The notes beneath the pieces were generated by a model, which was given only the letters and a program-made list of their open reading frames with translations, had not been told where the DNA came from and made no database searches. Below are positions 13,694 through 17,930 of a stretch of DNA of 35,252 nt, one piece after another. Every line of letters starts with the position of its first letter. Position 1 is the stretch's first letter. The position numbers and the translations under genes were made by a program. This DNA comes from Candidatus Thorarchaeota archaeon (GTDB taxonomy: Archaea; Asgardarchaeota; Thorarchaeia; Thorarchaeales; Thorarchaeaceae): positions 1 to 35,252 of the forward strand of contig JAUWOU010000019.1 of the NCBI GenBank assembly GCA_030612005.1. The letters are read 5' to 3'.

Positions 13694-13761
13694 GAGTACA
13701 ATTATTCCTAGATGCCAAAGTGTTTTAACACGGATAGAATTTTGCTGATTCGTGAACCTTG

Positions 13762-14898
13762 ATGATTCCATTTACCAAGCCTATTATCAAAGAAGAAGAG
13801 ATTGAAGCTGTCAAGCGAGTCCTAGAATCGGGTATGCTTGCTGAGGGTAAAGTTTCTCGCGAATTTGAAAAACTATTCTCTGAATTCGTTGGAACAAAGT
13901 TTGCCACTGTTACCTCAAATGGAACCACTGCTCTGAGTACTGCTCTAGAAGCAATGGGTATTCAACCTGGGGATGAGGTAATTACTTCTCCATTCACATT
14001 TATTGCTTCAGCTAATTCTATTGCTATGGTCGGTGGAATCCCGATTTTTATTGATATCAAACCAGACACTTACAACATCGATCCTGATCTCATTGAGGCT
14101 GCTATCACCGAGAAGACCAAGGCCATTATGCCTGTTCACATCTTTGGTATGCCCGCAGATATGAAACGAATAATGAAGATAGCAGAGAAGCACGACCTCC
14201 AGGTTATTGAGGATGCCTGTCAAGCTCATGGTGGTTCTATAAACGGTAAACAGATCGGAAATCTTGGACACTGTGCCACATTCTCATTTTATGCAACCAA
14301 GAACATACTAACAGGTGAAGGGGGCATGATCACAACAAACGACGAAGAGCTCTATGATCGGATGCTCATGATTAAAAATCACGGTCGTGGAAAACATGGT
14401 GGCTATAGTCACTATCAAATTGGGTACAACAATCGAATGATGGACATTGTTGCAGCTATTGGCGTAGAACAGATGAAACGCTTTGAGTTTGTTATCAATG
14501 AGCGAAGGAAGAACGCTCTAGAATATGATAAGTTCTTCTCTGAGTTTGATGAGATTAAACCACAGGTTGAAGATGATGGATTCCAATCTGCCTATCATCT
14601 GTACGCTCCAAGCATCTACTCCGACAAAATTACTCGTGATGAGATTGTATCTGCTCTTCGAGATGAGGGCGTCGGTTCTCGAGCTGTCTATGCTCTACCC
14701 TGTCATAAGCAGGACACCTATCTTAACATCCAGCAGTGGAGATGGGCTAAATTCGTAGACTACCCTGATTACTCCAAGGTGTCACTACCCCACGCTGAGG
14801 AGATTGGTGCAAGGCACTTCGATATCCCTGTTCATCCTAGTCTTACAGGAGCGGAAAAGGATTCAATCAAAGATTCTTTCAGAAAGATTCTTGCGTAA
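13762..14898 (+). CDS. DegT/DnrJ/EryC1/StrS family PLP aminotransferase
   Basis: A 378-residue sugar aminotransferase-type protein of normal length. The PLP Schiff-base lysine lies in S-F-Y-A-T-K-N (K180 from the ATG), followed by the usual T-G-E-G-G; the PLP-pyridine aspartate is in E-D-A-C-Q-A-H (about D151). The N-terminal F-T-K-P-I and SNGTTAL phosphate-binding segment also match. Members usually transfer an amino group from glutamate to a keto sugar nucleotide for surface glycans. GlmS further along the window feeds amino-sugar synthesis, but the two are 15 kb apart. The ATG at 13762 is preferred over the TTG immediately before it. The ribosome site is weak. The gene ends two bases before the opposing HAD gene ends. 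Confidence 0.93.
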   Translation: MIPFTKPIIKEEEIEAVKRVLESGMLAEGKVSREFEKLFSEFVGTKFATVTSNGTTALSTALEAMGIQPGDEVITSPFTFIASANSIAMVGGIPIFIDIKPDTYNIDPDLIEAAITEKTKAIMPVHIFGMPADMKRIMKIAEKHDLQVIEDACQAHGGSINGKQIGNLGHCATFSFYATKNILTGEGGMITTNDEELYDRMLMIKNHGRGKHGGYSHYQIGYNNRMMDIVAAIGVEQMKRFEFVINERRKNALEYDKFFSEFDEIKPQVEDDGFQSAYHLYAPSIYSDKITRDEIVSALRDEGVGSRAVYALPCHKQDTYLNIQQWRWAKFVDYPDYSKVSLPHAEEIGARHFDIPVHPSLTGAEKDSIKDSFRKILA

Positions 14899-14900
14899 TC

Positions 14901-15545
14901 TCAAATGAAATGTTCTAGAATTGACTCGAGATTCTTTGAGTGGATGGCTATTGTTGCTGTTTCACTCACATCTTCATTTTCAGGATTGAATGCAATAGAG
15001 AATGCTGAAACTCCAAACAGATCAATATCATTCATTCCATCACCAATGCTTGCCAAATTCTTAGTACTGAGATCTCTTTCTTGTAATATTCTAAGTGCAG
15101 TTTCTGCTTTCTGAGGTCCGCCCATAGAATATTTGACTGAGCCAGAATGAGCTCCATTCGATGTACCTAGAATATTGGAATGTGCGAAATCAAGATTTAA
15201 TCGCTTGGTTAGTGGTTCCATGAAAAATTGACTCACACCACTAGAGATACAGCCAACAAGGTATCCCGCCCCTTTGAGTGCTCCAATTGTTTCTTCAGTC
15301 CCTTTCATGAGAGGTAATTCCATCACTAGATGGTCGTAATTTCCATCAATTTGAACTCCTTTCCAAATCTTGCTTCCTAAGCGAATGGACTCTTCGATGG
15401 GTAATCTTTCTTTACCAATTCTAATGAATAACTCTTGATACTTTTCCCCTAGACCAACCTGTTGCGCTATATAAAACGCTGCGCTTGAACCGTCAAAGAG
15501 GACTCCGTCGAGGTCGAAAGCAATTACTTTGATTTCTTTGTGCAT
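14901..15545 (-). CDS. HAD-superfamily phosphatase, SerB-like
   Basis: A 214-residue haloacid-dehalogenase-fold hydrolase. Motif I is D11-L-D13-G-V-L-F-D, with D11 the nucleophile and D13 the acid/base; motif II is the Ser in C-I-S-S-G (S101 or S102); motif III is K146; motif IV is G-D-G-M-N-D at 168-173. The cap between residues 20 and 80 is helical (C1 type), as in phosphoserine phosphatase, and motif spacing fits that branch. It would remove phosphate from a small cytosolic metabolite; phosphoserine is possible but not shown. It starts at ATG with GAAGGTAA upstream. It stands alone, convergent with the DegT gene; a role in the same sugar pathway is conceivable. Confidence 0.9.
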   Translation of the reverse strand: MHKEIKVIAFDLDGVLFDGSSAAFYIAQQVGLGEKYQELFIRIGKERLPIEESIRLGSKIWKGVQIDGNYDHLVMELPLMKGTEETIGALKGAGYLVGCISSGVSQFFMEPLTKRLNLDFAHSNILGTSNGAHSGSVKYSMGGPQKAETALRILQERDLSTKNLASIGDGMNDIDLFGVSAFSIAFNPENEDVSETATIAIHSKNLESILEHFI

Positions 15546-15701: not shown

Positions 15702-16004
15702 ATGGACGAAGAATCGAAACAGGAAATATTGAAAGTATTGAAAAAGGAATTGAGCAAACAACAAGGGATTTTCAATAAGTACGCTCCTATCGCAATAAAT
15801 CCGAATGCTAAGGGGTATGGAGAAGCTCTAACAGCTTTTAACAAGGCAGATTGGGCAATAAAAGATATTCAAAAACAAATCGCCTATCTGATAACTGAGA
15901 AAACATATGAACCATCGATAATTGACAAAATAAAGGACGTTGTCGACAAACTCGTAGGTGATGATGATCCAGGAACGAGTGCCACCACAGGAGTACGGGG
16001 TTAA
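15702..16004 (+). CDS. Unknown 100-residue helical protein before the C25-like peptidase
   Basis: I do not recognise this protein. It is highly charged and helical in look: a Lys/Glu-rich first helix (EILKVLKKELSKQQGIF), a middle segment with NPNAKGYGEAL, a second amphipathic helix (ADWAIKDIQKQIAYLI) and a third (IIDKIKDVVDKLVG) followed by a Gly/Thr/Ser-rich flexible tail ending VRG. There are no Cys residues, signal peptide or membrane helices. It starts at ATG without a strong ribosome site; an AT-rich TTAAAG lies about 45 bases upstream. It precedes the caspase-fold peptidase by 93 bases on the same strand. The flexible tail could be a peptidase substrate or the protein could be an inhibitor or adaptor, but this is only a guess from position. 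Confidence 0.55.
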   Translation: MDEESKQEILKVLKKELSKQQGIFNKYAPIAINPNAKGYGEALTAFNKADWAIKDIQKQIAYLITEKTYEPSIIDKIKDVVDKLVGDDDPGTSATTGVRG

Positions 16005-16097
16005 TCACTTACTATTGATTTGCTTCTTATTAAAAAGTCTGAGATATTTCGCAGTAGGAAGTATCATTACCAATTTTGATAGAGAGTTTCAATAGCC

Positions 16098-17246
16098 ATG
16101 AATATAATTAGAAAATCAGGTTCCGTCAATGAGATTAAACGAAAGTTTGTACGGAAGGAACGATCTGATGAAGACCTTACCTTTGATGTTGGTCGCATGC
16201 CCCGTGATGTACTATCAAAGATGTTGATTATTTGTGGCAAAGTTGGAAAAGATAATATTACAAAATACGAGCAAAAGGCAAAGGAACTGAATTGCGACTT
16301 TATTCAAGAGAAAGGCAGGTCTTGGGTTCTGACCCACAAGACAATACGTGATAATTATGACCCAGACAATCACTTGGGTGTTCTTCTAATTGGAAGTAAC
16401 AAAGAACTACCTGCGACTCAAATATCCTATCAAGATGATTATGCCTTCACTGACTGGTTTATCCAAGATCTTGACAATGATATGATTCCAGATTTTCCTG
16501 TAGGACGGATTTTTGGTTCGCCTGAAACAGTGCTTTATCATATGGACCCTAAAATAATTGACAGTGATATTGCCATAGTTTTTGATAGTCAACCAGGTCG
16601 TTCATCTCGTCATGTTGAAGGTCTAGCAGCTCTAGGTTTTGATGTGGAAGTTCTTGGAAAATATACAGATGATGAACGTAAGTTACTGTCTGTATGTGAG
16701 TTCATTCTTCAATTTTCAGATGGAGTTTTCACTTCTAGAATCCATGGCACTCCTGATAAATGGGCGACACATAATTCTGTCATTTTAAGTTCAGAACAGA
16801 CATCTACAATCAGTTTTGAAGGATATCCTGTTGTCTTTTCAGAGGCATGTAGCACGGCTCTAGAAGGTCCACTCTTGAAAGCTTTCTTAGATCAAGGGGC
16901 GATCTATATTGGAGCAACATTGGATACGTTGAATAATGTGGAGCCATTTGATGATTGGAGAACATGTCCATATTGTGATGGTTGGAAATTTGGTTTCCTT
17001 GATCTATTAGACACATATGAGCTGATTGGGCAGGTAAAGATGTCAGTGGACAGAGAGATTACGCGTAACCTTGACAGAGATGCCATGGAAGCTCTTGAGA
17101 ATGTGCGTAATGGTAACACAAACACCCTGACCAATGACCACGCTGTGTCAGTTTGTGAATGGATGCTATTTGGTAATCCACTCAGACCAACTACAGTTGG
17201 GCCTAACGCAGATTACTCTCCAGGTAGAATTGTTGTAGATACTTAA
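16098..17246 (+). CDS. Caspase-fold cysteine peptidase, C25 (gingipain)-like
   Basis: A 382-residue protein with the features of clan CD peptidases. The candidate catalytic His is H216 in S-R-I-H-G and the candidate nucleophile is C251 in F-S-E-A-C-S-T, the H-G then A-C order and spacing of C25 and caspase-type folds. Upstream, DDYAFTDWFIQDLDND then IPDFPVGRI near residues 113-137 matches the C25 pattern of an acidic loop followed by P-D-x-x-V-G-R. Near the C-terminus MLFGNPLRP corresponds to the GDP-type segment of C25. Unlike gingipains it has no signal peptide, prodomain or secretion domain, so it should be cytosolic. A C-x2-C at 290-293 lies after the nucleophile. The substrate is unknown. 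It follows the 100-residue unknown and overlaps the opposing membrane-protein gene by 4 bases. It could instead be an inactive homologue. Confidence 0.7.
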   Translation: MNIIRKSGSVNEIKRKFVRKERSDEDLTFDVGRMPRDVLSKMLIICGKVGKDNITKYEQKAKELNCDFIQEKGRSWVLTHKTIRDNYDPDNHLGVLLIGSNKELPATQISYQDDYAFTDWFIQDLDNDMIPDFPVGRIFGSPETVLYHMDPKIIDSDIAIVFDSQPGRSSRHVEGLAALGFDVEVLGKYTDDERKLLSVCEFILQFSDGVFTSRIHGTPDKWATHNSVILSSEQTSTISFEGYPVVFSEACSTALEGPLLKAFLDQGAIYIGATLDTLNNVEPFDDWRTCPYCDGWKFGFLDLLDTYELIGQVKMSVDREITRNLDRDAMEALENVRNGNTNTLTNDHAVSVCEWMLFGNPLRPTTVGPNADYSPGRIVVDT

Positions 17247-17584
17247 TATGATGATTTACTCATCCTCTTGTATAGGAGTGTTCCAATGAATCCTCCAACT
17301 CCTCCAATGATAGCCATGATAAGAACAGCTTCACTAAAGACAAGAAGGTCTGATACAGAGCCTGTTGCAATAAACAACAACCCGTAAGAAAACGCTGCAC
17401 TTAAGGTCCCAGCAATAATCGCATTTCTTTTGTGATCTAAAATATACCCACATATGAAACCCACCAATAAAGGAGTAAATAATGCTAGAATAAAGAATAA
17501 TCCCCAATTGAGAAGGATTCCTGCCGCCAATATCGCAAAAACTCTCAATGCATCATCATTGAATCGACTTACAGTTTCGGACAA
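17243..17584 (-). CDS. Small four-helix membrane protein
   Basis: A 113-residue, almost wholly hydrophobic protein with about four membrane helices (roughly residues 13-30, 33-47, 55-72 and 80-104) and a short Lys/Arg loop (DHKRN) after the second. Glycine is frequent in the last helix (IIGGVGGFIGTLL), a pattern of tight helix packing. The start is TTG with GAGGT seven bases upstream. No family is recognised with certainty; small archaeal DUF5518-type membrane proteins look alike. It converges on the peptidase gene, and the two stop codons overlap in the sequence TTAA. Confidence 0.7.
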   Translation of the reverse strand: MSETVSRFNDDALRVFAILAAGILLNWGLFFILALFTPLLVGFICGYILDHKRNAIIAGTLSAAFSYGLLFIATGSVSDLLVFSEAVLIMAIIGGVGGFIGTLLYKRMSKSSY

Positions 17585-17744
17585 TTTCTAACCTCTACTG
17601 GCAATCATTCTCAATTTGTTTTAATCATGACGCTATCGCGCTTTACAAGTGTCCGATATCACGACAACTGATAGATTAATAGCCGAATGATGTAGAATAT
17701 TATTGCCACTTCTTACAATTTGAGTGGTTAGAGAGGCAATAGAA

Positions 17745-17861
17745 TTGACTGAGGAAAACGAATCAACTAGTGAAAAAATTAAGAAAATTTTCAGTATCAA
17801 AATACATGGACCAAAGAATCCGTTTAAGACAAAAAATCCGTACAAGAAGAAAGAAGAGTGA
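17745..17861 (+). CDS. Possible 38-residue small protein or gene remnant
   Basis: A short frame starts at TTG with GAGAGG (17731-17736) eight bases upstream, so it has a better ribosome site than many real genes here. It encodes an acidic N-terminus (TEENESTSE) and a basic tail with a small repeat (KNPFKTKNPYKKK). It is in the same frame as the ABC permease start 70 bases downstream but ends at a TGA. The stretch up to the permease stays open in another frame (IKGILTKNQIELLGDLDCLG). Either this is an independent peptide, or the 5' part of a larger gene has been broken by indels. Confidence 0.3.
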   Translation: MTEENESTSEKIKKIFSIKIHGPKNPFKTKNPYKKKEE

Positions 17862-17930
17862 GAGGACTTTCTCCAAACCCATAAAAGGCATTCTCACAAA
17901 GAATCAGATTGAACTACTGGGTGACTTAGA

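Follow-up and report, generated by a model that had tools for sequence, protein, structure and literature searches.

The gene at positions 16098–17246 of the window, the whole stretch of 35,252 nucleotides analysed here, is a real gene and is well conserved in Thorarchaeota (Asgard archaea). The window is part of a metagenome-assembled genome whose nearest named relatives are without exception Candidatus Thorarchaeota; the Asgard host agrees with the preliminary description of this DNA.

16098–17246, forward strand: stand-alone C25-type peptidase gene, 382 residues, ATG start, without signal peptide, prodomain or immunoglobulin (Ig) domain

According to the profile comparisons, the product is a member of the peptidase C25 (gingipain) superfamily, and its clade appears to be a distinct, probably cytosolic catalytic-core subfamily of this known peptidase family. 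We consider it likely that the protein is a compact, probably cytosolic C25 cysteine endopeptidase, which is expressed from its own promoter and has a housekeeping processing role.

In a search of the phylum, the peptidase gene was detected in 39 of the 47 genomes of the window's Thorarchaeota family, and remote homologues were detected in five genomes from three other Asgard families. The identity is 61–94% inside the genus and 48–67% across the remaining family. Two matches were obtained in a single genome only, G223 (residues 1–327 and 317–383), and these look like one gene divided between two contigs. Among the four nearest species, dN/dS is 0.05–0.09, which means strong purifying selection. 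The maximum-likelihood tree of the peptidase has 13 taxon-label changes for 14 taxon groups. This is the minimum possible, and thus the gene has been inherited mainly vertically.

Family membership and catalytic residues

The Pfam profile PF01364 (Peptidase_C25) matches the window protein at 27.6 bits (gathering score 23), and the match spans residues 81–140 only. The same profile matches 29 of 30 orthologues at E ≤ 1. In the remote Asgard homologue L072, the match is located instead in the second half (residues 204–368). As the Pfam match is confined to one half of each protein, a profile–profile comparison with canonical C25 domains was performed to settle the family. Using hhalign, a profile of 35 peptidase family members was compared with 22 canonical Asgard C25 domains, taken from this genome and its relatives. 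The resulting probability is 97.3% over 236 columns, and both halves of the catalytic domain are covered. The control values are at most 1.2% for 20 column-shuffled targets and 0.2% for the reversed target. Sequence searches of the PDB with the peptidase gave no relative and no gingipain match. The Pfam score above the cut-off and the hhalign result bear out the C25-type catalytic domain that a preliminary description of this DNA had proposed.

In the hhalign alignment, G99, P105, D119, P131, G136-R137, G209, H216-G217, W222, A250-C251 and T253 fall on matching canonical C25 residues. The following motifs are the most relevant to catalysis and family assignment.

16488–16508, forward strand: P131-D132-F-P-V-G136-R137, the C25 'P-(D/E)-...-G-R' signature in the N-terminal half (posteriors 0.98–0.998)
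16743–16748, forward strand: H216-G217, predicted catalytic His, aligned on the canonical C25 His (posterior 0.96; 0.96–0.98 for the His-Gly pair)
16845–16850, forward strand: A250-C251, predicted nucleophile, aligned on the canonical C25 Cys (posterior 0.9998)

All three had been pointed out previously and are present at the places given for them; the first reads P131-D132-x-x-x-G136-R137 (P-D-x-x-V-G-R in the preliminary description). H216-G217, A250-C251, P131 and G136-R137 are invariant in the 30 orthologues, and D132 is nearly invariant. When the five distant homologues are added, the expected conservation of the catalytic pair holds throughout for C251 (35/35) and, with one exception, for H216 (34/35). 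The exception is the distant homologue L080, in which the residue is Arg (V-R-G). Thus, L080 at least may have lost activity, or a His at this position may be dispensable. In the proposed mechanism, Cys251 would attack the peptide bond, and His216, judging from its conservation, would serve as the acid/base. As in gingipains and a number of further families of clan CD, the P1 residue would probably be Arg or Lys.

The Arg of L080 could also be explained if the protein were a C25-derived pseudopeptidase, in which catalysis is lost or changed and a binding or scaffold role is left. The conservation beyond the dyad agrees with this explanation: the S207-D208-G209 turn is invariant save for Asn at D208 in one distant homologue, and the blocks D294-G295 and G359-N360-P361 are invariant. 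However, a dead enzyme is expected to lose the His-Cys pair more often than is observed here over four Asgard families and long branches. Thus, we regard a pseudopeptidase as unlikely. Two features around the predicted catalytic His count against reading the protein as a C25 enzyme. The segment preceding H216 is two residues shorter and less hydrophobic than in canonical C25, and the alignment is weak just ahead of H216 (posterior 0.37–0.43 at R214-I215).

The S207-D208-G209 turn, at the end of the strand-like EFILQFS, was also considered as a degenerate Gly-His-Gly, in which case H216 would be non-catalytic. The profile alignment speaks against this assignment: S207-D208-G209 pairs with the N-x-G turn that precedes the strand in canonical C25, and H216 pairs with the canonical His. 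At the C-terminus, residues 377–382 (window 17226–17243) read R-I-x-V-D-T in most members. The end point is exactly the same in 30 of 30 family members, and D381 and T382 do not vary.

AlphaFold models were made from seven sequences (the window and six other loci), and the mean pLDDT is 39.1 for the whole protein and 38.4 for the C-terminal 233 residues, too low for either model to be used. As a solved C25 member has a caspase-like fold (PMC4357240), the same fold is inferred for the window peptidase from its C25 membership. The preliminary description had raised a link to caspase origins, which did not find support. C14 proteins occur in 13 of 59 relatives; none was detected in the window's genome at the threshold used, and the Pfam scan of the peptidase gave no C14 match. 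The hhalign probability of the peptidase family against 15 Asgard C14 domains is 0.2%. Since canonical C25 likewise fails in this comparison (0.8%), the peptidase family is no nearer to caspases than the rest of C25 is, and unrelatedness is not implied. The present evidence has no bearing on caspase origins.

Gene neighbourhood and the upstream gene

The features surrounding the peptidase gene are as follows.

13759–14898, forward strand: DegT/PseC-like sugar aminotransferase, conserved upstream neighbour
14901–15545, reverse strand: HAD phosphatase (SerB-like), divergent neighbour
15702–16004, forward strand: lineage-specific gene of 100 residues in the divergent HAD–peptidase gap, not a conserved partner
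16061–16080, forward strand: AT-rich element, GTAATTATC-like in relatives, conserved in the alignment, 18–37 nt upstream of the peptidase ATG
17243–17584, reverse strand: small membrane protein with weak DUF5518 resemblance, convergent neighbour

Almost all relatives share the same gene order: a DUF2085 membrane protein, the aminotransferase, the HAD phosphatase (reverse), the peptidase, the small membrane protein (reverse), a DNA-glycosylase-like gene and an ABC-2 permease. The peptidase gene is a single gene between two neighbours on the opposite strand or, where the HAD gene is missing, directly follows the aminotransferase gene. In most relatives, the stop of the small membrane protein gene overlaps or abuts that of the peptidase. 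By its sequence, the gene ahead of the ABC-2 permease resembles an AlkA-type DNA glycosylase gene. No match to it was found in the window (17585–17930) or in the contigs of the three nearest species, and the clade without it is the same clade that gained the 100-residue gene.

The AT-rich element is probably the TATA box of a promoter belonging to the peptidase itself, and it is kept between the 100-residue gene and the peptidase. The 100-residue gene lies 93 nt upstream of the peptidase on the same strand. Its dN/dS against the nearest relative, G013, is 0.31 (moderate purifying selection); G005 was left out of the codon statistics because the frame start there is not homologous. The open reading frame is a genuine, moderately constrained gene. 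The preliminary description had proposed its product as a substrate or inhibitor of the peptidase, and its adjacency was checked in related genomes. It adjoins the peptidase only in four sister species (the window's genome, G005, G012 and G013), against 39 of 47 genomes for the peptidase. In most of the other relatives with the HAD phosphatase at this place, the HAD–peptidase gap is 63–90 nt (132 nt in one), and in the window it is 552 nt. The short gap of the relatives and the retained AT-rich element indicate that the 100-residue gene entered ahead of a promoter-like element that was already there. The insertion is recent and specific to this lineage; the gene product is not a conserved substrate or inhibitor. 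A stop-containing relative of the 100-residue protein with 40% identity is present in G031 (L041:1474-1728), on a contig different from that of the G031 peptidase fragment.

Some defence systems of prokaryotes make use of caspase-like proteases of clan CD. Together with the small open reading frame just upstream, this could suggest a protease of defence or programmed death whose substrate, sensor or inhibitor is the 100-residue neighbour. In a PADLOC scan of the peptidase and seven neighbours, however, nothing was obtained for the peptidase, and the neighbours gave weak matches only; the best (E = 1.5e-4) is that of the DUF2085 membrane protein to a TIR effector model. The metabolic and membrane neighbours are conserved, the tree clusters genus by genus in keeping with mostly vertical inheritance, and no relative of the peptidase was found in the viral contigs searched. 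As the small gene is also limited to four species and inserted upstream of the promoter-like element, the defence or death module named in the preliminary description is very unlikely.

The distribution and the genomic context argue rather for a housekeeping role. The peptidase, expressed from its own promoter, would most likely process one or a few intracellular proteins. In two genomes of the Asgard family f25 (L079:5408-8001 and L080:788-3416), the homologue is located directly upstream of the gene for KsgA, a 16S rRNA methyltransferase, with gaps of 14 and 3 nt. This arrangement points to housekeeping co-expression in f25. Both loci also carry a HemK-like methyltransferase downstream of the homologue. 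In the family f15 (L077:4063-8749 and L078:610-4188), the homologue abuts or overlaps an upstream gene whose soluble product is unclassified, and the next gene encodes a membrane protein. In one of the f15 operons, a zinc-ribbon/TPR-like protein is also encoded. No neighbour is common to the peptidase loci of all Asgard families compared. Since the context differs between families, the substrate is not readable from the neighbours. A further reading, which we hold to be rather improbable, is that these proteins form an old Asgard lineage of cytosolic prodomain-free C25 peptidases carrying out regulated site-specific cleavage in the cytoplasm, for example in ribosome maturation as hinted by KsgA in f25. 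This would be a type of regulatory protease undescribed in archaea.

Cellular location and comparison with known peptidases

Most of what is known of C25 peptidases concerns secreted degraders and virulence factors, and those of archaea are commonly taken for extracellular scavengers. Over the first 60 residues, the 17-residue hydropathy peaks at 0.80 in the window peptidase and at no more than 1.12 in any of the 35 homologues. As a positive control, the values for the secreted C25 encoded in this genome are 2.23 at the N-terminus and 2.95 at the C-terminus. No signal-like or anchor-like hydrophobic segment was found in any of the 35 homologues. The catalytic domain starts close to the N-terminus of the 382-residue protein and extends to its C-terminus, leaving no prodomain, Ig domain or sorting tag. 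The hydropathy and the length agree with the preliminary description, in which the protein lacks all of these elements and a signal peptide. Judging solely from the absence of such signals, the peptidase is probably cytosolic. As it has no prodomain, the enzyme would be made in its final form, and its activity would then be limited by the choice of substrate, by a metal or ligand, or by the conserved basic N-terminal segment (residues 1–25). The separate canonical C25 of the same genome (L073:1501-2772) carries both signal-like and anchor-like segments and matches gingipain R at 5.8e-12.

The presence of this secreted C25 in the same genome would be in keeping with a nutrient-scavenging role for the window peptidase also, following non-classical export, and C25 peptidases of archaeal metagenome-assembled genomes (MAGs) are mostly called extracellular (PMC6461988). 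However, the secreted relative has hydrophobic segments at both termini, and none of the 35 homologues has one. We consider a secreted scavenger very unlikely. C25 genes predicted to be non-secreted have already been listed for Thermoprofundales (PMC6461988), so that an intracellular location as such has precedent. Since this conserved Asgard clade lacks signal peptides, an extracellular location should not be deduced from a C25 annotation alone. In these relatives of eukaryotes, the probably cytosolic peptidase is a specific candidate for an enzyme of regulated proteolysis inside the cell.

The window peptidase resembles MEROPS family C25 (PF01364) in the profile match over both catalytic halves, in the His-Gly and Ala-Cys pairs at canonical places and in the P-(D/E)...G-R signature. 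Gingipains proper have a signal peptide, a large N-terminal prodomain and an IgSF domain after the catalytic domain, whereas the window peptidase has none of these. It also lacks the gingipain sorting domain, and its sequence is too distant for a gingipain match in the PDB, unlike the secreted C25 of the same genome. The C14 caspases and metacaspases would belong to the same clan CD, judging from the His-Cys dyad in that order, but the Asgard C14 proteins have no detectable profile similarity to the peptidase. YabG, a sporulation-specific protease proposed for clan CD, is of a different family and is likened here by description, as an analogue in its way of working only. It has a His-Cys pair, is Arg-specific and processes a few proteins of its own cell (PMC12445089).
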